A stretch of 50,573 nucleotides of DNA from Gammaproteobacteria bacterium (GTDB taxonomy: Bacteria > Gemmatimonadota > Gemmatimonadetes > Longimicrobiales > Gaopeijiaceae): the NCBI GenBank assembly GCA_009840525.1, contig VXNP01000016.1, forward strand, positions 1 through 50,573, written 5' to 3'. A model generated the notes under the pieces. That model worked only from the letters and a program-made list of their open reading frames with translations, was not told where the DNA came from and did no database searches. The stretch's first letter is position 1; each line of letters begins with the position of its first letter. A program made the position numbers and the translations under genes. Below are positions 20,435 to 29,330 of this stretch, piece by piece.

Positions 20435-21547
20435 GTGAAGGTTGGCCTGGTGGGCTTCCCGGGTTCGGGGAAGACGACCGTGTTCAATGCGATGACCGGT
20501 CAGGACGCACCGGTCGGATACGGAGGCGAGGTGCGCCGCGCCGTCGTGGACGTGCCCGATCCCCGGGTGGAGTGGCTCTCGGCCCTCTACCGGCCGAAGA
20601 AGACCACCTTCGCCAGCATCGTCTTCTGCGACATCCCCGGAGAACACGGTTCCGAACAGCGCGGGCTCTCGACCGCGGCGCTGCAGCAGGTGCGCGACCA
20701 GGACGCCCTCTGCCTCGTTCTGCGCGGCTTCGACAACCCGGCGCTCGAGCACGCCCCCGATCCCGCCGCCGAGCTCGAGGCGTTCCACGCCGAATGCGTC
20801 CTCGCCGATCTGGTGTTCGTCGAACGCTGGCTGGAGCGGGCGCGCAAGGAAGCGAAGCGCGGGCTCGAGGTGGCGGCCTTCGAACGCATGCAGGAGACGC
20901 TCGAGTCGGAACGGCCGCTGCGGGTGCTTCCCGAATCGGAGCTGGATCGTTCGCTCCTGCGCGGCTATTCGCTGGTCACCGACGCACCGCTGCTGGCCGT
21001 GCTCAACCGCGAGGAAGACGACGGGGGCGAGGCGTTGCCGGATGATCTGGCGGAGTCCCGCTCGGATGAACTCGACGCGCCGCTGCCGGAGGAACGGGAG
21101 GATCCGCTACCGGGTGAACTCAAGCAGGCGCTGGTCCGCATGGGCGCCGGGGGCATGTCGCTCTCGGCCAGCCTCGAGGCGGAGATCGCGATGCTCGAGC
21201 CGGCGGACCAGCGGGAGTTTCTGCGCGACATGGGGCTGGCCGAGCCCGCCCTCGACCGCTTCATTCGCGCGGCCTACCAACTGCAGGACCTGATGTCCTT
21301 CTTCACCGTGGCGGGGCCGGAAGTGCGAGCCTGGACCATCCGCGCGGGCACCGACGCGCGACGAGCCGCCGGGAAGATCCACTCGGACATGGAGCGCGGC
21401 TTCATCCGGGCGGAGGTCATCCCGTTCGATGTCCTGGAGGAATACGGATCGGAGCAGGCGGTGAAGGCGGCCGGGCGGCTGCGGGTGGAAGGCAGGGACT
21501 ACGTCGTGCAGGACGGGGATGTCCTGCGGGTGCTCTTTAACGTGTAG
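20435..21547 (+). CDS. YchF/OBG-like GTPase-family protein
   Basis: A 370-residue P-loop protein. G1 is GLVGFPGSGKTTVFNAMTG (residues 4-22), the DxxG region is CDIPGEHGSEQRGLS, and LLAVLNREE stands where YchF has NxxE, the motif behind its ATP preference. The C-terminal 90 residues (LQDLMSFFTVAGPEVRAWTI, TDARRAAGKIHSDMERGFIRAEVIPF, GRDYVVQDGDVLRVLFNV) are a clear DUF933/TGS domain as in YchF. A variable acidic insert replaces part of the helical domain. Housekeeping YchF is about 363 residues and more conserved, so this is likely a divergent paralogue. GTG 20435 has GGAGGG nine bases upstream. Confidence 0.85.
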   Translation: MKVGLVGFPGSGKTTVFNAMTGQDAPVGYGGEVRRAVVDVPDPRVEWLSALYRPKKTTFASIVFCDIPGEHGSEQRGLSTAALQQVRDQDALCLVLRGFDNPALEHAPDPAAELEAFHAECVLADLVFVERWLERARKEAKRGLEVAAFERMQETLESERPLRVLPESELDRSLLRGYSLVTDAPLLAVLNREEDDGGEALPDDLAESRSDELDAPLPEEREDPLPGELKQALVRMGAGGMSLSASLEAEIAMLEPADQREFLRDMGLAEPALDRFIRAAYQLQDLMSFFTVAGPEVRAWTIRAGTDARRAAGKIHSDMERGFIRAEVIPFDVLEEYGSEQAVKAAGRLRVEGRDYVVQDGDVLRVLFNV

Positions 21548-21581
21548 CAGAACGTCTGAAGCGAGGTCTCGAATACGTAAA

Positions 21582-22460
21582 ATGCGTAAAATATGTAACG
21601 CGTGTAGAGCGGGCGCGCGCCTCGTGAGGATCGCCCCGCAGGCCGCAGCGGCTTGGATGACCTCGCAGGCCGCAGCGGCTTGGATGACCTCGCAGGCCGC
21701 AGCGGCTTGGATGACCTCGCAGGCCGCGGCGTGGATGACCCCGGTGGCCGTGGCCGCGCGGATGGCTTCACTCGCGACGGCGGCGTGGACGGCCTCGCTG
21801 GCCGTGGCGGGCACGGCTGGCGCCCAGACGCCGTCGCGCGCCGAACTGCTCGGCATCGCGCGCGAGGTGGTGGAGGGGGCGGCGTTCGTGTCGCTGGCGA
21901 CGCTGGATGACGAGGGCTATCCGGCCGTGCGCGCCATGGACCCGCTTCCGCCGGACGACGACTGGGTGGTGCGGCTGGCCACCAACCCCGACAGCCGCAA
22001 GGTGGAGCAATTGCGCGCCCGACCCCGGGTGGCGCTCCACTACCTGGCCGACGACGTGCCCGCATACGTCACGCTCATCGGACGGGCACGCCTGGTGGAC
22101 GACCCGGAGATGAAGGCCCGTCACTGGAAGGAGTCGTGGACGCCGTTCTACCCGGACCGGGACCAGAGCGTGCTGCTCATCGAGGTGACGCCGATTCGGC
22201 TTGAGGTGGTATCCGAGGCGCACGGCGCGCCGGGCGACGCGGAAACCTGGCGGGCGCATGTGGTGGAGTTCGGATCCGGGGCGGGGAGCCGACACGGGGA
22301 CGAGGGACCAGGAAGACGTCCTTCGGAGCGATTCCTCGCCAACGGTCGGGGGGTCGTCAGGGCGATGGCCGTATCGCTTCGCCCGTCCGCTCGCGTCCGC
22401 CTATCTTGGGCCGCGGCGGCGCAACTTTCGCCCACGCGCCCGAACCTGCAGGCGAGATGA
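21582..22460 (+). CDS. Exported PNPOx-fold (pyridoxamine-phosphate-oxidase-like) protein
   Basis: A 292-residue protein. Residues about 20-80 are a long hydrophobic, small-residue segment built from nine-residue repeats (QAAAAWMTS and decayed copies) ending AVAGTAGAQT, which looks like an over-long signal peptide with an AxA cleavage site. Residues 85-230 carry the flavin-binding split barrel of general stress protein 26-like enzymes: GAAFVSLATLDDEGYPAVRAMDPLP, LATNPDSRKVEQLRARPRVALHYL and YVTLIGRARLVDDPEMK, ending in VTPIRLEVV. The last 50 residues are low-complexity. The start is uncertain: ATG 21582 or GTG 21624. The stop overlaps ATG 22457 near the DUF4328 gene. Confidence 0.7.
   Translation: MRKICNACRAGARLVRIAPQAAAAWMTSQAAAAWMTSQAAAAWMTSQAAAWMTPVAVAARMASLATAAWTASLAVAGTAGAQTPSRAELLGIAREVVEGAAFVSLATLDDEGYPAVRAMDPLPPDDDWVVRLATNPDSRKVEQLRARPRVALHYLADDVPAYVTLIGRARLVDDPEMKARHWKESWTPFYPDRDQSVLLIEVTPIRLEVVSEAHGAPGDAETWRAHVVEFGSGAGSRHGDEGPGRRPSERFLANGRGVVRAMAVSLRPSARVRLSWAAAAQLSPTRPNLQAR
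21638..21742 (+). repeat. 27-bp tandem repeat inside the signal region of the PNPOx-like gene
   Basis: Three identical 27-base units (21638-21664, 21665-21691, 21692-21718) are followed by a 24-base partial copy to 21742. Each unit encodes a nonapeptide with AAAAWMT, keeping frame. Degenerate nine-residue copies continue to about 21830. Confidence 0.95.
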
Positions 22461-22462
22461 GC

Positions 22463-23122
22463 ATGGAGAATCACTCGACCACTCCCGAACCAACCGAAGG
22501 CTTCAGGGATCCCACCGGGCTCATGAAGTGGACGCGGGGGTTTCTGTACGTCGGTATCGTTTCGTGCCTCCTGGGGATGTGGTCCAGTGCTCGTGACCTG
22601 CTGGGAGGCGGAGGCGAGGCTGATCTGGACATCGGACTGAGGGTGATCTTCTGGATCTTCACCGGGCTCCCGGTCCCGCTCATTACCGCAGTCCTGGTGC
22701 TCACCTGGATTCATCGGGTCAACCACAATGCCCGACAACTGGGCGCAGCCGGCATGCGCTTCACGCCGGGGTGGGCGGTGGGCTGGCACTTTGTGCCCAT
22801 CGCATGGTTCTGGAAGCCCTACCAGGCTATGACGGAGATATGGCGCGCTTCCCGGAACCCTGCCGACTGGCGTGGCAAACCGGTGTCCCCGCTGCTGCAC
22901 TGGTGGTGGTTCCTCTGGATCGTACCGACCTGGAGCCTCTTGATCGTGGATCTGGCGGCACGCCGCAACCTCGAGGAGACAGACGCGGAGAACGTGGAAG
23001 CGGCCGCTGAACTCGTGAGTTGGATCCTGGAGATTCCGCTGATTTTCGTGCTGCTCGCCATCATCGCAGCAGTCCACCGGATGCAGACCGAACATCACCG
23101 GGCACAGGTGGCGACGAGCTGA
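22463..23122 (+). CDS. DUF4328-family membrane protein (chromosomal copy)
   Basis: A 219-residue protein with about five helices. The core LVLTWIHRVNHNARQLGAAG, FTPGWAVGWHFVPIAWFWKP, YQAMTEIWRASRNP and PLLHWWWFLWIVPTW is the DUF4328 signature. Start ATG 22463 (MENHSTTPEPTEGF) was chosen because the related gene at 24729 starts at the same point; ATG 22457 is also possible. The two copies differ at 11 positions over 87 core residues, and base-level similarity runs from the start region to just past the stop. Function unknown. Confidence 0.8.
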   Translation: MENHSTTPEPTEGFRDPTGLMKWTRGFLYVGIVSCLLGMWSSARDLLGGGGEADLDIGLRVIFWIFTGLPVPLITAVLVLTWIHRVNHNARQLGAAGMRFTPGWAVGWHFVPIAWFWKPYQAMTEIWRASRNPADWRGKPVSPLLHWWWFLWIVPTWSLLIVDLAARRNLEETDAENVEAAAELVSWILEIPLIFVLLAIIAAVHRMQTEHHRAQVATS

Positions 23123-23229
23123 CCGCGGCCGGCGAGCGACGAGTATCCGACGCGACCGCGGGCGCGGCGCGTAACCGGTTCGAGGTGGGTTCAGACGGGG
23201 CCGGCACCCAGGCCCCCGAGACCGCGCCA

Positions 23230-23757
23230 TCATTCCAGAGATTCCTCCACGGCTTCCCGCGCCTCGGCCTCGATCTCCCACGGGATGGCTGAGTCACGGT
23301 AGAGCGCGGCCCCGTTCGAGAGCACGACGGTCTCGCCCCTCGACGGGGCGCCGGGATGCACCGATGGGACCGGGGCCAAATCCCTCCAGACTTGTCTCGG
23401 CGCATCGGCCAGCATCTTCCCGCTGCGCGTGAAGAACACCACCGTTCCGTCGGTTGCCACCGATGCCTTCACCCGCCCCTCGTGAACCGCGCGATGATGC
23501 CGCCGGCATAGCAACACTGTGTTCCCGAGGCTCGTTTCGCCCCCGTCGGCCCAGTGCTTCACGTGATGCGCCTCGGTGAACCGGCAGCCACATCCGGGGA
23601 ACCGGCATCCCCGGTCGCGCTCCTCCAGCGCCCGCCGGATGTGCGGAGGAATCGTCCGACCCGGTAATCCTGTAACTGATATAACAACAACATAGTACGG
23701 CGAACCTCGATCGGGTGTTATCACTATTGGTATCCCCACCCTGAGCCAAGAATCCAT
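23230..23757 (-). pseudogene. C-terminal HNH half of an interrupted DUF222/HNH endonuclease gene
   Basis: From 23655 downward the frame encodes RTIPPHIRRALEERD, then the HNH zinc/nuclease segment CRFPGCGCRFTEAHHVKHW, GNTVLLCRRHHRAVHEG and an acidic tail. This is the C-terminal part of DUF222 (13E12-type) proteins. Its N-terminal part lies at 27420-28718, in the same strand and frame, beyond the integrated element. The open frame runs 34 codons into the element, to ATG 23757, so a chimeric protein with element-encoded residues could still be made. The HNH residues themselves are intact. Confidence 0.85.
23641..23655. repeat. Attachment-site copy, left end
   Basis: GTGCGGAGGAATCGT, matching the right copy at 14 of 15 positions. 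On the minus strand it encodes T-I-P-P-H of the HNH protein. Confidence 0.8.
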
Positions 23758-23891
23758 TGGATCTCAAGAGAGGTCTGTGGACGAGTGCGAGGCCGACTCG
23801 AAGCTGTTCCCTTTGCCTCAGGGAATCGGACAGGACCGGGGTCGGAGTCGGCTTGCCCGGGTGATGGATCATCCAGTAAGATCCTCCCGCC

Positions 23892-24599
23892 ATGGGAAAG
23901 AACAAGCTGAAGGACAAAGAGCTGAGACCGTCGTGGAGGCGTTCGCTCCTCAGGGGCGCGTGCTTCGTCTTCTGCCTCTTGACCATCCGGGTGGTGGCCC
24001 TGCAGGCCTTTACCATCACCTCCGGATCCATGGAGCCCACGTTGCTGGCCGGGGACTTCGTGTGGGTCAACAAGGCTGCAATGGGCTCGCGAATCCCGTT
24101 CACCGACATTCGCATTCCCGGCTACTCCGAGCCCCGGAGAGGGGAGATCCTGGTATTCGATCCTCCGCACGAGGACGGGCTCATCGTCGTCAAGCGGCTC
24201 ATCGGCATGCCCGGCGACACGCTGGAAATGCGGGACAAGACCTTGTATCTGAACGGGCGGGCGCAGGACGAGCCATACGTGCTGCACACCGATGGGGAGC
24301 CCAATTACTCGGCAGCCGCGATGCTGTGGCACCAAGAGATCCTCGTTGGCGGTCCGAGGGAGGATTACCTGCCGACCCGCGACACATGGGGTCCACTCGC
24401 GATTCCCGACGGTCGGTACTTCATGCTCGGCGACCATCGCGACGAGAGTCTGGATTCACGCACTTGGGGACTTCTGGAGCGCTGGCGCTTCGAGGGGCGG
24501 ATCCTCGTCCGATACTTCTCCTACAACCGGGATTCCCACCGGCCATTCCCCTTCATCCGCGAGATACGCTGGAGCCGGATCGGAACCCGACCCAGGTAG
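23892..24599 (+). CDS. lepB: Signal peptidase I (element cargo)
   Basis: A 235-residue type I signal peptidase with one N-terminal helix (residues about 19-38). The catalytic Ser46 is in TSGSMEPTLLAGD and the general-base Lys101 in IVVKRLIGMPGD; the box E motif is GDHRDESLDSRTWG. It cuts signal peptides at the outer face of the inner membrane. All catalytic parts are present. It starts 130 bases inside the element and is followed by the DUF4328 gene on the same strand, 129 bases on. As cargo of a tiny element it is unusual: it may process specific exported proteins, or it may be a captured host copy. Confidence 0.9.
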   Translation: MGKNKLKDKELRPSWRRSLLRGACFVFCLLTIRVVALQAFTITSGSMEPTLLAGDFVWVNKAAMGSRIPFTDIRIPGYSEPRRGEILVFDPPHEDGLIVVKRLIGMPGDTLEMRDKTLYLNGRAQDEPYVLHTDGEPNYSAAAMLWHQEILVGGPREDYLPTRDTWGPLAIPDGRYFMLGDHRDESLDSRTWGLLERWRFEGRILVRYFSYNRDSHRPFPFIREIRWSRIGTRPR

Positions 24600-24728
24600 G
24601 CACGAGGGCAACGGGCTACCGTCAGTTTGGGGTTGAAGACTTCGCTCGCCCGATCGTAGCCGACTAGTTTTGGTAGCTAGTATGGGCACCTCTCTACGAC
24701 ACATACGAACCTCGGAAGCGAGGTAAGC

Positions 24729-25430
24729 ATGGAGAATCATTCGACTGCCCCCGAACCGACCGAGGGCTTCAGGGATCCGACCGCGCTGACGAGATGGACG
24801 CGGGGGTTTCTGTACGCCAGCATCGCCACGGCCCTCGTGCGCTTAGGGTCGGATGCCGCCAATCTGCTAGGAACCGAAGGCGTGGGAGAGTCGGCAGGAA
24901 CCGCGTTTGACCTCTTCTGGTTCCTGACGGGGGTGCCGATCTGGCTCATTACGGCGATCCTGGTGCTCACCTGGATTCATCGGGCCAATCACAACGCACG
25001 ACAACTGGGCGCAGCCGGCATGCACTTTACGCCGGGGTGGGCGGTGGGCTGGCACTTTGTGCCGATCGCGTGGTTCTGGAAGCCCTACCAGGCCATGACG
25101 GAGATCTGGCGCGCCTCCCGCAACCCTGCGGACTGGCGCGACGAACCGGTATCGCCGCTGCTTCGCTGGTGGTGGATCCTCTGGATCGTGCCGTTCTGGG
25201 GCGTCGTCATCGTGGAGTTGACGGTAGCCCGAACCCTCGCCGCGATGACTGGGCCCGGCTTGCTGCCCTTCACCGCGCCAGCTGTGGCGAGCCTGGAAGC
25301 AGCTGCAGCAGCTGCAGGGCTTGTGTACTGGATCCTGGAGATTCCGCTGATCCTTGTGCTTCTCGCCATCATCGGCGCCGTCCACCGGATGCAGAAGCAA
25401 CATCGCGCGAGGTGGGTGGCGGTGGGCTGA
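24729..25430 (+). CDS. DUF4328-family membrane protein (element copy)
   Basis: A 233-residue paralogue of the protein at 22463, with the same start (MENHSTAPEPTEGF), the same core (LVLTWIHRANHNARQLGAAG, GWHFVPIAWFWKPYQAMTEI) and a 14-residue longer Ala-rich segment before the last helix (AVASLEAAAAAAGLVYW). GAGG five bases before ATG supports the start. It lies within the element, downstream of lepB and on the same strand. Duplication between host and element is the simplest reading. Confidence 0.8.
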   Translation: MENHSTAPEPTEGFRDPTALTRWTRGFLYASIATALVRLGSDAANLLGTEGVGESAGTAFDLFWFLTGVPIWLITAILVLTWIHRANHNARQLGAAGMHFTPGWAVGWHFVPIAWFWKPYQAMTEIWRASRNPADWRDEPVSPLLRWWWILWIVPFWGVVIVELTVARTLAAMTGPGLLPFTAPAVASLEAAAAAAGLVYWILEIPLILVLLAIIGAVHRMQKQHRARWVAVG

Positions 25431-26088
25431 CCGCGGCCGACCGGGCTTCGCTGGGTTGGGAAGGGGGCTCGACCCCGGCGCAGGGACGGGCGGAGTCCGT
25501 CCCGGAGGCCGGGGGGACCGGCGCCGAAGCGGTGGCAACGCCAACCACGTCGTCCGCCGGTCCCGACGCAGGACCCGCTCGCGAAATCGACGGCCTCGAC
25601 CGGCGGTGATCGGTGGTCGGCGGGAGACCATCCGGCGACCGGTCGCCTGGACGTTCGGCCAGGCGGGAGGGGGGCGAACACCCCCAACCGCGAACGCTGC
25701 CGGAGCGGCGGTTTTCCGGGGGGATCGAAGGGGGGCGGAGCACCCCTCGCCAGAGCGCGAATGTTTTACATTGCGTAGGCTGGCTTACGACCAATAACGG
25801 TCGTCAGCCAGCCCTTGGGGACGCCGCCGAAAGCGCCTCTCGGAGCACCGTCCCGGACAGCGTCCACCGGGCCGTCGCCGGCAAGCTCCCCGGCCTCTTG
25901 GCCGACCGCCTCAAGGACGGCGGAGACGCAACCCCCAGCGCTCTCTGCCGAGCGGCCCGGTTCCGCCCTACCCGTACCCCTCGGAGACCGGCGATCGTCG
26001 ATCTCAGGCGATCCTGAGGCCCGAAGAATACCCGAAACGACCCCGTTGTGCCCCCGAAACGGCCTCCGAGCCCGGTCGCGGGCTCGGA
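25431..26088. other. Gene-free stretch of the element with GC-rich hairpins
   Basis: No frame here shows recognisable protein features; the open frames are Arg/Pro/Gly-rich shadows. The first 330 bases hold G-run/C-run inverted repeats (for example around 25670-25690 and 25728-25752). A short A/T-rich patch (25760-25777) precedes the strong hairpin at 25778-25813. It could hold a recombination directionality site, an origin or a small RNA; none is proven. Confidence 0.5.
25778..25813. repeat. 15-bp inverted repeat with six-base loop
   Basis: Arms GGCTGGCTTACGACC (25778-25792) and GGTCGTCAGCCAGCC (25799-25813) pair at 14 of 15 positions around AATAAC. No U-run follows on either strand, so it is not a standard terminator. 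It lies downstream of the integrase gene, between it and the cargo. Confidence 0.8.
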
Positions 26089-27261
26089 TCAGCTCCCGGC
26101 GCCCGCTCTCCCGGCCGCCAGATACGCCGACCAGTCCTGCATGACCCGGCGTCGGCGCTCGAACAGGTCGCTCCTGAAGTACGCGCCCTCGACCCCGCCG
26201 ACCTTGTGCGCCAGCGCCGCCTCGGCGACCGTGCGGTCCACGCCCGCCTCGGCGGCCCAGTCGCGGAACGAGCTGCGCAGCCCGTGCACCGTGCTCGGGA
26301 TGCGCAAGTCCCGAAACGCCCCCGCCACCTGAGGGCTCCGCAGCTCCCGTCCCTTGAAGCTGGGGAAGATCAACCCCGACCCGTTCTCGATCTCCCTGGC
26401 CCGGTCCAGCACCGCAAGCGCGCCCGTCGAAAGGGGCACCCGGTGCTCCCGCCCGGTCTTCATGCGCTCGGCGGGCACCGTCCACGTCTGGCGGTCCCGG
26501 TCGATCTCCGGCCACCGCGCCCTGCGCGCCTCGCCGCTCCTCGTCGCCGTCAGGGCCACGAACTCAAGACACAGCCGGATGCCCAGCCACGCGTCCGACG
26601 CCCGGACCGCCGCAAGCGCCGCCCCTACCTCGCCGTGAGGCAAGGCCCGGAAGTGCGTCCGGTGGCGCGTGCCCCGCGGCAACGCCGCCGCGATGGCGTC
26701 GCCCGCCGGGTTGTCCTCGCGGTAGCCCCTGGCCACCGCCCACTTCATCACCGCGCCGATGCGCCGGCGCACCCGCGCCGCCGTGGGCCGCTTCTCGTTC
26801 CAGATCGGTGCCAGACAGGCCAGCACGTCGGCGGTCGTGATCTCGCCCACCCGCTTGCGCCCCAGCTTCGGAAACACGTAGTCCCGAAGACACTGCCGCC
26901 ACTGCTTCTCGCTGGCGTCGCCCTTCCAGTTCTTCGCGTGGAGCGCGATCACCTTCTCGGCCGCCCGCTCGAACGTCGGCATGCCGCCGCTGCGCGGATC
27001 CATGCCCTTGTGGATGGCGCGCCGATTCTCGAGCGCCTTCGCCCGCGCCTCGGCCAGCGTCACGACCGGATAGGGACCGAGGCCGACGTTGAAGGGCCTG
27101 CCGCCGATCCGCATCCGTTGCGCCCAGGTCTTCGACAGCTTTCCTGAGGCGGTGGGCTTGACCAGCAGCGAGAGCCCGTATCCGCCGCGACCGTCCCCGT
27201 ACCGCCCCGGTCGCTTGACGGTCCGAACGAACGCGGCGCTCAGGCGTTTGGGTCGCGTCAC
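26089..27261 (-). CDS. int: P4-type tyrosine integrase
   Basis: A 390-residue site-specific recombinase. The N-terminal DUF4102-like arm-binding domain (SAAFVRTVKRPGRYGD, GGRPFNVGLGPYPVVTLAEAR), a core-binding domain (FERAAEKVIALH to GYREDNPAGD) and the catalytic domain are all present. Catalytic residues, counted from this start: Arg241 (TATRSGEARRARW), Lys268 (ERMKTGREHR), His326/Arg329 (VHGLRSSFRDW), His352 (ALAHKVGG) and Tyr361 (EGAYFRSD). GTG 27261 has GGAG six bases upstream; a longer start at 27291 would lie inside a short repeat. It points inward from the right attachment site and should catalyse integration and excision of the element. Confidence 0.92.
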   Translation of the reverse strand: MTRPKRLSAAFVRTVKRPGRYGDGRGGYGLSLLVKPTASGKLSKTWAQRMRIGGRPFNVGLGPYPVVTLAEARAKALENRRAIHKGMDPRSGGMPTFERAAEKVIALHAKNWKGDASEKQWRQCLRDYVFPKLGRKRVGEITTADVLACLAPIWNEKRPTAARVRRRIGAVMKWAVARGYREDNPAGDAIAAALPRGTRHRTHFRALPHGEVGAALAAVRASDAWLGIRLCLEFVALTATRSGEARRARWPEIDRDRQTWTVPAERMKTGREHRVPLSTGALAVLDRAREIENGSGLIFPSFKGRELRSPQVAGAFRDLRIPSTVHGLRSSFRDWAAEAGVDRTVAEAALAHKVGGVEGAYFRSDLFERRRRVMQDWSAYLAAGRAGAGS

Positions 27262-27282
27262 GGCGTGCTCCGTGTGGATTCT

Positions 27283-27304
27283 GGTTATCACCGTAGGTTA
27301 TCAC
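27283..27304. repeat. Paired GGTTATCAC repeats beside the integrase start
   Basis: GGTTATCAC occurs at 27283-27291 and 27296-27304, 13 bases apart. A related GTTATCACT occurs near the other end of the element at 23717-23725. Position and spacing suggest integrase arm sites or an autoregulatory operator; this is inference. Confidence 0.45.
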
Positions 27305-27383
27305 TAACGGAACAAGACTAAGCGGAATCGTCTGAACCGTCAAGAGACATACAACACAAGTGATGCCAACGTGTTATCCGGAA

Positions 27384-28718
27384 TTACGAGACGTTACGGG
27401 ACCTTGCTGAACACCTATGGTGCGGTGGAATCGTGCGCGTCCTTCGGCCCACGCTCAGCATCGAGCCGTCCTTCGCGTGGACCATCGCGACCACCGCGGC
27501 ATCGCACGCTATGCGCCGCGACGTTTCCGCGGAAACGCGAATGCCGTCCAGATCGGACCTTCCGGGCTCTCCCTCCGCCGCCAGCGTCGCTGCATCGCAG
27601 TGGACCATGACCTGGTAGCGCTCGGCGCGGGTGCCGGACTCGGCGCGGGGCCGAGTCTGCAGCCCCGGTTCACCGGGGCCGCCACCCGATTCACCCCGGC
27701 TTTCCGTCGCGAGCGCATCCGAGTCTCCGCGGGAGTCGCGCGACTCGCCGCCCCCGAACCCAGCCGCCAGCGCCCGCTCCGCGAGCAGCCCCACGGCGTC
27801 CGCCCGCCGCTGCTTCGGCCTCGGCCGGAGATCATCGGAACCAGGCTCGCGGGTCGCCGCGCCTCGTCCGCTGCTTCCGGCATCCTGTCCGCCGCGGGCG
27901 GCCCCGCCCTCGCCCCGGAACAGCGCATCCGACGCCGCCTCGACCGCCCTCATCAGCACCGCTCCGACCTCGGGCTCGAGACGCCCCTTCACCACGTACA
28001 TCCCGTCGCCGTCCACGAAGACCGAGAACGCCCGGCTGCGGTGCCGGGCCTGCTCGGCCGTCAACTCCTCGTCGCGCGACAACTTCTTCCACATGCGCAC
28101 CATCTGCTCCAGGTTCGCCGCCGAGCCCGCTCGCGCGAACTCGAGCAGCTTCGCCTCGCTCTCGGGCGTGGCCACGCGCGTCAGCGCCCGCACCTTCGCG
28201 TACGAGATGCTCCCCTCCCGCAGCGCGCCGGCGGTCTGCGGCAGGTTCTGCAGTGCACGGGCGGCGCGCACCCGCTCGCGCGCCGGGCCGATCTTGATGC
28301 CGATCCGCCAGGCCAGCCACTCGGCGCAGGACCCGAAGTCGTCCTTCCAGCCGCCCCGGCGATCGAAGTCGGCAATGAGGGTCATCATCTGCGCTTCCGC
28401 GGCGTTGATGCCGGCAGCCAGCTCGGCGATGCGGTCGCCCAGCCTGGCCAGGTCGTCGTCGGGCTTGGCCCCGGAAGGGGAAGGCGCAGAGACGGGTTCG
28501 GGACGGGAGGGCGCCGGGATGGCATCGGGAGACGCGGTTCGAGCGCCGGAACCGGGGGGCGCGGAGCCGACGTCGCGAGCCACGACGTCAGTGCTCGCAG
28601 GGACGGGCCCGGCAATCGCATCGGTGGCAGGTCGGTCAACAGTCGGTTCTCGTACCACTGCGGGCCACGGAGAAGGTTGCCGGCGAATGTCGTAGAGAAC
28701 TTCCGGGGATGCGATCAT
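27384..28718 (-). pseudogene. N-terminal DUF222 half of an interrupted DUF222/HNH endonuclease gene
   Basis: The frame from ATG 28718 (GGAGG four bases before it) encodes a disordered Pro/Ala-rich N-terminus, then the DUF222 helical domain (DDLARLGDRIAELAAGINAAE, CAEWLAWRIGIKIGPARERV, ISYAKVRALTRVATPESEAK) and GRLEPEVGAVLMRAVEAA. A charged linker, YQVMVHCDAATLA and finally GRRTRTIPPH follow. At 27420 it enters the element and stops 12 residues later. In intact relatives the next residues are the HNH block, which lies at 23230-23655. Joined, the protein would be about 569 residues. DUF222/HNH proteins are common, often multi-copy, with unclear biological role. Confidence 0.85.
27420..27434. 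repeat. Attachment-site copy, right end
   Basis: GTGCGGTGGAATCGT, the partner of 23641-23655. On the minus strand it encodes the T-I-P-P-H at which the N-terminal half breaks off. Confidence 0.8.
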
Positions 28719-28738
28719 CGTTCCTCCCAACATGAGAT

Positions 28739-28759
28739 TGTACAATGACTTACGTACAA
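28739..28759 (-). promoter_or_regulatory. Inverted repeat upstream of the DUF222/HNH gene
   Basis: TTGTAC (28739-28744) and GTACAA (28754-28759) form an inverted repeat with a nine-base spacer, next to an A/T-rich TATATTT on the minus strand that could be a -10 region. It lies 20 bases before ATG 28718 and may be an operator. Confidence 0.35.
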
Positions 28760-28932
28760 ATATAACGCCACCGAAATCGGCTTCTCAGGATGCCCTGTAG
28801 TCGCCGAAGTGAGGTCTGGAGACCTTCGGAGGAGGAACGGGGCTGCGAGGGCCGTCAGCGAGCCTGTGGGAGCCCCTGGCGAGCCGGAGAATCTGGCATA
28901 TCGGACTCCGCGGAATCGCACGCTTCAAAGTT

Positions 28933-29330
28933 GTCAATGGCAGTTTGGGACTCCGCCATGTGAATTCGGGACAGCCGCGCGCTGATCCCCGGCGTCACGA
29001 ACTCCGAACCAAAGGTCAATGGCGGAACGAGACTCGCGAATGTGAATTCGGGACAGCCGCGCGTTGGTCCCCGGCGTCACGAGCGCCTAACCAGGTCAAT
29101 GGCGAAACGAGACTTGCGAATGTGAATACGCGCGAACCATCACCGGTCTTCCGGTCGATTCAGGACCGCGGAGTGCGGGTCCCCCCGGCGCCAACAGCGC
29201 CGAAACAGGTCAATGGCGGATTGGGACCCGCGAATGCGAATTCGGAAAGCTGATCTCGGACCTCAGCGAGCCGAAGCCTCCGAACTCGGCCGAATGAGGC
29301 GATGGACGCCCGCATGTGAATCCGGGCATC
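28933..29330. repeat. Intergenic tandem repeat array, about 80-bp spacing
   Basis: GTCAATGG recurs at 28933, 29015, 29095 and 29209 (spacing 82, 80, 114), each time followed by a conserved block containing GTGAATTCGGGACAGC or a close variant and, in the first two units, CCCCGGCGTCACGA. A decayed fifth unit lies near 29297-29330. The frames through it carry no protein signal. Together with 28746-28932 it forms a 660-base gene-free region between the endonuclease gene and ggt. Confidence 0.8.

Follow-up and report, generated by a model that had tools for sequence, protein, structure and literature searches.

The lepB gene of the window (the whole stretch of 50,573 nucleotides analysed here, which is the entire contig G000:C133 from a genome bin of 3.99 Mb) lies in an islet that we read from sequence comparison as a small site-specific integrative element, with a DUF222-HNH gene as its target and a variable cargo slot. 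In this reading, for which we estimate a probability of about 0.76, the DUF4328 gene next to lepB was likely captured, and the two genes would be together by history. The tyrosine-recombinase element measures 3,779 bp from core repeat to core repeat (starts at 23641 and 27420), within the limit of 4 kb given in the original prediction. It is flanked by two copies of ACGATTCCNCCGCAC, one at each junction, inside the DUF222-HNH gene, and its two 15-bp cores differ by one base (Table 1). The split gene has its DUF222 half to the right of the integrase, and its HNH half to the left of lepB. The ORF of the DUF222 half ends at 27384, within the element, and that of the HNH half (23230-23757, minus strand) now has its start there. 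In the window, the severed HNH half gains about 33 codons from the element, along with an ATG in frame. Such a new start codon is not a common property of these elements, as only the window keeps the frame open: the element part of the frame contains one stop each in the related loci L138, L139 and L140, and in L246 there are two. A simple gene caller found only three genes in 23641-27434, namely lepB, DUF4328 and the integrase. With no further gene called inside, lepB and the DUF4328 membrane protein gene on the same strand are indeed the only protein cargo, as had been proposed. The second DUF4328 gene just outside the element and the insertion within a DUF222-HNH gene are features that the original prediction did not mention.

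Table 1. Features of the element, its surroundings and two related loci (positions are those of the window unless a locus is given)
Feature	Position	Strand	Basis or remark
Resident DUF4328 paralogue, flanked by PPOX and the HNH half, not part of the element	22457..23122	+	Profile match
HNH C-terminal part of the split DUF222-HNH gene	23230..23655	-	ORF and profile match
attR-side core repeat ACGATTCCTCCGCAC, HNH side	23641..23655	-	Sequence comparison
TAGTGATAAC, possible integrase arm site near attR	23717..23726	-	Motif
lepB, type I signal peptidase	23892..24599	+	235 aa; PF10502, TIGR02227
783-bp segment with DUF4328	24650..25432	+	Replaces about 186 bp of L138, L139 and L140
DUF4328 membrane protein gene, probably a captured copy	24729..25430	+	233 aa; PF14219
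Repeated stretch between cargo and integrase	25433..26088	.	Diverged copies, broken reading frame
Tyrosine recombinase (Arm-DNA-bind_3, Phage_int_M, Phage_integrase)	26089..27291	-	Profile matches
TAGTGATAAC, possible integrase arm site near attL	27297..27306	-	Motif
attL-side core repeat ACGATTCCACCGCAC, DUF222 side	27420..27434	-	Sequence comparison
DUF222 N-terminal part of the split DUF222-HNH gene	27435..28745	-	ORF and profile match
AAA_5 and McrBC-family genes, large element with the same integrase type and core	L245:12304-15131 (G009:C70)		
McrBC-family gene near a core	L248:16269-17345 (G008:C16)		Same McrBC gene as G009:C70

The same locus is uninterrupted in G006 (L122), where the order is ychF-PPOX-(decayed DUF4328)-HNH-DUF222. 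After in-silico removal of the element, the window aligns across the junction into the single 641-codon ORF of G006 (1,771-nt alignment, 86.5% identity); with the element left in, the alignment breaks into two pieces across the DUF222-HNH gene. The core is also read through in G002 (L108), at a contig end. The window's own genome contains 16 DUF222-HNH matches, pieces included, and the core is found there within a 589-codon open frame on contig C141 and in an 81-bp piece on C132. In total, the core pattern occurs at 37 places in 11 of 12 genomes, against none for the reversed control. The islet thus shows two hallmarks of a site-specific integrative element, a direct repeat at each end and an uninterrupted target site in another genome; MAG contigs break at these repeats. 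A profile search of the element's three genes gave no match to the relaxase or conjugation families that would place it among ICEs or IMEs.

The recombinase has recognizable arm, core and catalytic domains in the profile search. It belongs to a clade of 8 rows with 100/100 support in a 79-row tree, all 8 of which adjoin a DUF222 half-gene, and close integrases next to DUF222 half-genes were found in G010, G009, G008, G007, G001 and G006. The synonymous divergence (dS) of the window integrase is 0.087 with respect to L138 and 0.267 with respect to L128. Among named records, the closest integrases occur in MAGs that their depositors labelled, in a mixed manner, Gemmatimonadetes, BD2-11 clade or Gammaproteobacteria, and such bins are presumably of sponge origin. 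Viral contigs hold integrase relatives with 27-48% identity, at 77 loci. The motif TAGTGATAAC occurs twice in the window, once near each end of the element, and two or more copies were seen in 2 of 100 shuffles. The stretch 25431-26088, adjacent to the integrase gene, has 13 matches in the window's own genome and 43 in G009, and at five or more places (G019:C27, G008:C40, G010:C29, G009:C139 and G023:C51) it directly adjoins a tyrosine recombinase 48-61% identical to that of the window. It is apparently a repeated, frame-broken remnant of a reading frame; a conserved RNA was also considered, and Rfam gave no match up to an E value of 1 over 21000-29000. We propose that the tyrosine recombinase joins a circular form of the element to the core of a DUF222-HNH gene, perhaps via the TAGTGATAAC arm sites. 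The insertion point lies where the DUF222 and HNH parts meet, within the codons of the RTIPPH motif, and comparison of occupied and empty loci shows the gene split and a 15-bp core at each end of the element. A slot for variable cargo extends between the attR end and the integrase and is usually occupied by lepB in this small sub-lineage.

Related elements were collected with a 244-bp query running from the attR end to the lepB start, with up to six candidates scored per genome. At least 17 matching places were found in at least 12 of 117 genomes. Nine matches of 28-78 bp, several of which correspond to the stretch just upstream of a chromosomal lepB, were left out. The eight matches of at least 140 bp are the window, G008:C11 (L139), G009:C169 (L140), G010:C1 (L138), G007:C43 (L128), G008:C47 (L246), G004:C322 (L129) and G023:C13 (L109). 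In four of them (window, L138, L140 and L128), a single contig holds both cores together with a close integrase; one core is seen in L139 and L246, and none in L129 and L109. The core-to-core lengths of these four are 3,172 bp (L138), 3,184 bp (L140), 3,779 bp (window) and 5,789 bp (L128). In L138 and L140, the integrase and lepB alone are called between the cores. In the L128 slot, lepB is accompanied by a gene of 370 aa that weakly matches a six-bladed beta-propeller (PF17170, 2.7e-7); this gene gave no match to the lipoprotein neighbour of a chromosomal lepB (locus A, below). In L246, neither lepB nor DUF4328 is found up to the contig end. On G009:C70, cores at 408 and 27462 lie about 27 kb apart, with AAA_5 and McrBC proteins inside. 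With lepB alone, lepB and a beta-propeller gene, or McrBC instead, the cargo therefore varies among elements. Over the eight long-match loci, lepB is intact in six, a remnant of its first 27 residues in one (G023:C13) and not found up to the contig end in one (G008:C47), a recurrence that rests on few independent copies since those of G008 and G009 are near-identical. On G023:C13, other integrases are located near the lepB remnant and DUF4328, and genes for a coupling protein, a T2SSE-type ATPase and an ArdC-like protein (L109:202-4482) lie about 5-9 kb from them; these genes are perhaps part of a conjugative element at the same place.

The predicted product of lepB is a full type I signal peptidase with a Ser46/Lys101 dyad, as originally described: it scores well above the cut-offs for PF10502 (2.6e-40, 138.6 bits, cut-off 22.9) and TIGR02227, signal peptidase I (131.4 bits, cut-off 47), with Ser46 in SGSMEPT and Lys101 in VVKR. 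It has a single N-terminal hydrophobic segment (residues 24-42) and can be aligned to PDB chains of E. coli LepB. A conjugative TraF-type peptidase was considered and rejected, TIGR02771 giving 24.5 bits, below its cut-off of 100.25. Both dyad residues are kept in 14 copies of the lepB clade, and pairwise dN/dS of the window gene with the 13 other copies is 0.20-0.36; lepB is therefore under purifying selection, to which the chromosomal lineages contribute. By analogy with its family, the enzyme would be anchored by residues 24-42 and cleave preproteins outside the membrane. Most likely, it is a membrane-bound enzyme that processes the signal peptides of exported proteins alongside the two resident LepBs of the host. 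The window genome encodes the element copy, these two resident LepBs, which share about 60% and 46% identity with it, and one weak match of 27 residues. The SGSMEPT box of the element enzyme reads SGSMMNT and TASMENT in the two resident ones. Both of the latter (L002, G000:C55, and L003, G000:C52) have an Asn after the catalytic SM, where the element LepB ends its box with Pro before Thr.

In a 34-row tree, the element and chromosomal lepB copies of the genus, plus one copy from another genus (G019), form a 12-row clade with 100/100 support. Chromosomal copies are found at locus A (G001, G004, G007), locus B (G002, G008, G009, G010) and locus C (G005). Across the gene, their DNA is 78-85% identical to that of the element copy, and no close integrase, core or DUF4328 was found in the surrounding stretches fetched for these loci. 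A frame-broken lepB lies near an integrase of another kind on G026:C61. The clade is present in 9 of the 11 genomes of the genus and absent from G003 (67% complete) and G006. In the window genome it is found only within the element; locus A spans 153 bp there versus about 1,050 bp with lepB in G001, and a search of the same genome for the locus-B neighbour, run without a positive control, gave no match. The window gene itself reads as a mosaic of alleles. Within at most its first 315 nt, it shares 92-94% identity with L138 (first four 90-nt windows), and beyond about nt 450 its identity to L128 and L129 is 97-100%. In part of the 5' stretch, a locus-A copy, L133, shows comparable identity (91-95%), and the donor is therefore not fixed. 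Because of this mosaicism, the branching order inside the lepB clade is unsafe. Judging from these comparisons, the islet gene represents a third LepB in the genus, one that is mobile and also present without an integrase. The claim that a signal peptidase is a rare passenger is only partly borne out. LepB-type matches, all below 60% identity, occur in 22 of 50,697 phage records, most of them unannotated, and in 470 of 72,556 plasmid records, and the element LepB matches PHROG family 15562 (4.3e-29). PADLOC assigned no family to lepB, both DUF4328 copies, the integrase or the DUF222 half, and a known anti-phage defence was thus rejected for the cargo. In the open-licence literature searched, we found no paper on lepB in a genomic island with an integrase.

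The second cargo gene appears to be of local origin. The DUF4328 product of the element matches PF14219 (1.2e-22, 80.6 bits, cut-off 27.2); a structure model built from two rows (pLDDT 51, pTM 0.34) was too poor for a fold search, and no paper on DUF4328 was found in the open-licence literature searched. The window is collinear with L138, L139 and L140 except at 24650-25432, the segment that contains this gene. The resident DUF4328 gene of the ychF-PPOX locus, 68-69% identical to the element copy, lies on the far side of the HNH half, with 519 bp between its end and the insertion core. A tree of 17 rows pairs the element gene with the resident gene of G002 (98/98) and the resident gene of the window with that of G010 (89/80). 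The element copy of G023, a different genus, falls within the same five-row clade (98/97), and the other G023 copies outside it. The sequence TGACCGCGGCCG, at and past the stop codon, is common to the element and resident copies of the window and the G023 copy, and absent from the resident copies of G002 and G010. A recent tandem duplication of the resident gene was rejected, given a dS of 0.515 between the two window copies and their separate places in the tree. The element DUF4328 is probably a host gene captured from a ychF-PPOX-DUF4328-HNH locus of the kind that adjoins the insertion site, in which case lepB and DUF4328 would travel together by history. Tandem arrays of two to four DUF4328 genes occur in the sister genus (L111, L112, L115, L116, L117, L118 and L120). 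No DUF4328 was found in viral contigs, and among 72,556 plasmid records there is a single weak match (28.6%).

The original prediction regarded lepB and DUF4328 as a self-contained unit, a protease with a membrane partner or immunity-like protein. What holds of this interpretation is that lepB is an intact, conserved and recurrent cargo; the unit itself is not supported. Among the best 80 of 499 loci with related integrases, many of them cut by contig ends, lepB is found in three and DUF4328 in none. At the eight loci sharing the element end, DUF4328 is present in two, the window and G023:C13, and both genes are intact in the window only; it was not found in L138, L140, L139, L128, L129 or L246. 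In the family at large, DUF4328 occurs in 25 of 121 genomes and lepB in all 36 genomes searched, those 25 included, yet the two adjoin in only two of the 25 (the window, and G023 with its 27-residue remnant), and lepB is also found without either integrase or DUF4328. That they form a functional pair, DUF4328 being partner, substrate or immunity-like protein and the two being kept together, would agree with the purifying selection seen on both genes in pairwise dN/dS and with the same strand and order in G023. There, however, lepB is broken and DUF4328 open, so that DUF4328 in this genome is independent of lepB, and the two element DUF4328 copies are not joined to each other in the tree. The one recurrence of the order in another genus leaves a small residue of support for a functional pair, which we consider very improbable. 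The association of lepB with DUF4328 is probably ordinary.

LepB is an antibiotic target, as stated in PMC9360617, and an additional copy could increase its dosage; the cargo could thus confer resistance to a natural signal-peptidase inhibitor of the habitat, such as arylomycin, and the copy in another genus (G019) would fit with this. The same source links a proline at residue 84 of E. coli LepB to resistance. This position aligns with Ala39 of the element LepB, and the proline is absent from it in all 14 clade copies examined and in the two resident LepBs. Arylomycin-type resistance via the known proline is thereby rejected, and a resistance role as a whole is quite unlikely. Alternatively, the element lepB could replace a chromosomal gene of its own class, with substrates of its own and a host dependent on the islet. 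The presence of the clade in most genomes of the genus, its confinement to the element in the window genome, where locus A has no such gene, and the box unlike those of the resident enzymes all point in this direction. However, the clade looks dispensable since G003 and G006 are without it (the former being an incomplete genome), and locus A in the window lineage may never have held lepB. We consider such a substitution possible but doubtful. A broader proposal would make a whole signal-peptidase class of the genus a mobile cargo that moves between the DUF222-HNH islet and fixed chromosomal sites, recombines its alleles and handles substrates that the resident LepBs do not, with hosts relying on the islet enzyme; this seems unlikely.

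An integrative element with a variable cargo slot, in which lepB and a probably captured DUF4328 gene would have come together by history, can be compared with several known systems. The phage genes of phiRv1 of Mycobacterium tuberculosis contrast with the two cargo genes of the islet. According to PMC9317374, phiRv1 integrates within a REP13E12 repeat via the serine recombinase Rv1586c, and PMC10589994 lists REP13E12 with HNH endonuclease/DUF222 as a repeat family. By kind of gene, the landing site of phiRv1 is the same as here, DUF222-HNH, whereas the islet uses a tyrosine recombinase; in the open-licence literature searched, no paper was found that joins REP13E12 with a tyrosine recombinase. 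The dusA islands and GInts, integrase-driven islands with cargo (PMC4482086 and PMC5385486), resemble the islet as tyrosine-recombinase islands in protein genes, but their target genes are others and the islet has one recombinase. The islet LepB shares with bacterial signal peptidase I the family score, the Ser/Lys dyad and the N-terminal anchor, and differs from the resident enzymes in being an extra mobile copy. From the chromosomal lepB copies of its clade, it is set apart by the integrase, core repeat and DUF4328 around it. The lasting interest of this islet is its DUF222-HNH landing site and its mobile lepB. It adds a second, unrelated type of recombinase that uses DUF222-HNH (13E12-type) genes as landing sites. 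Since the motif that it targets is conserved in a multi-copy family, an element could have several equivalent sites per genome. Among these uncultured bacteria, lepB is now documented as a cargo in at least two genera.
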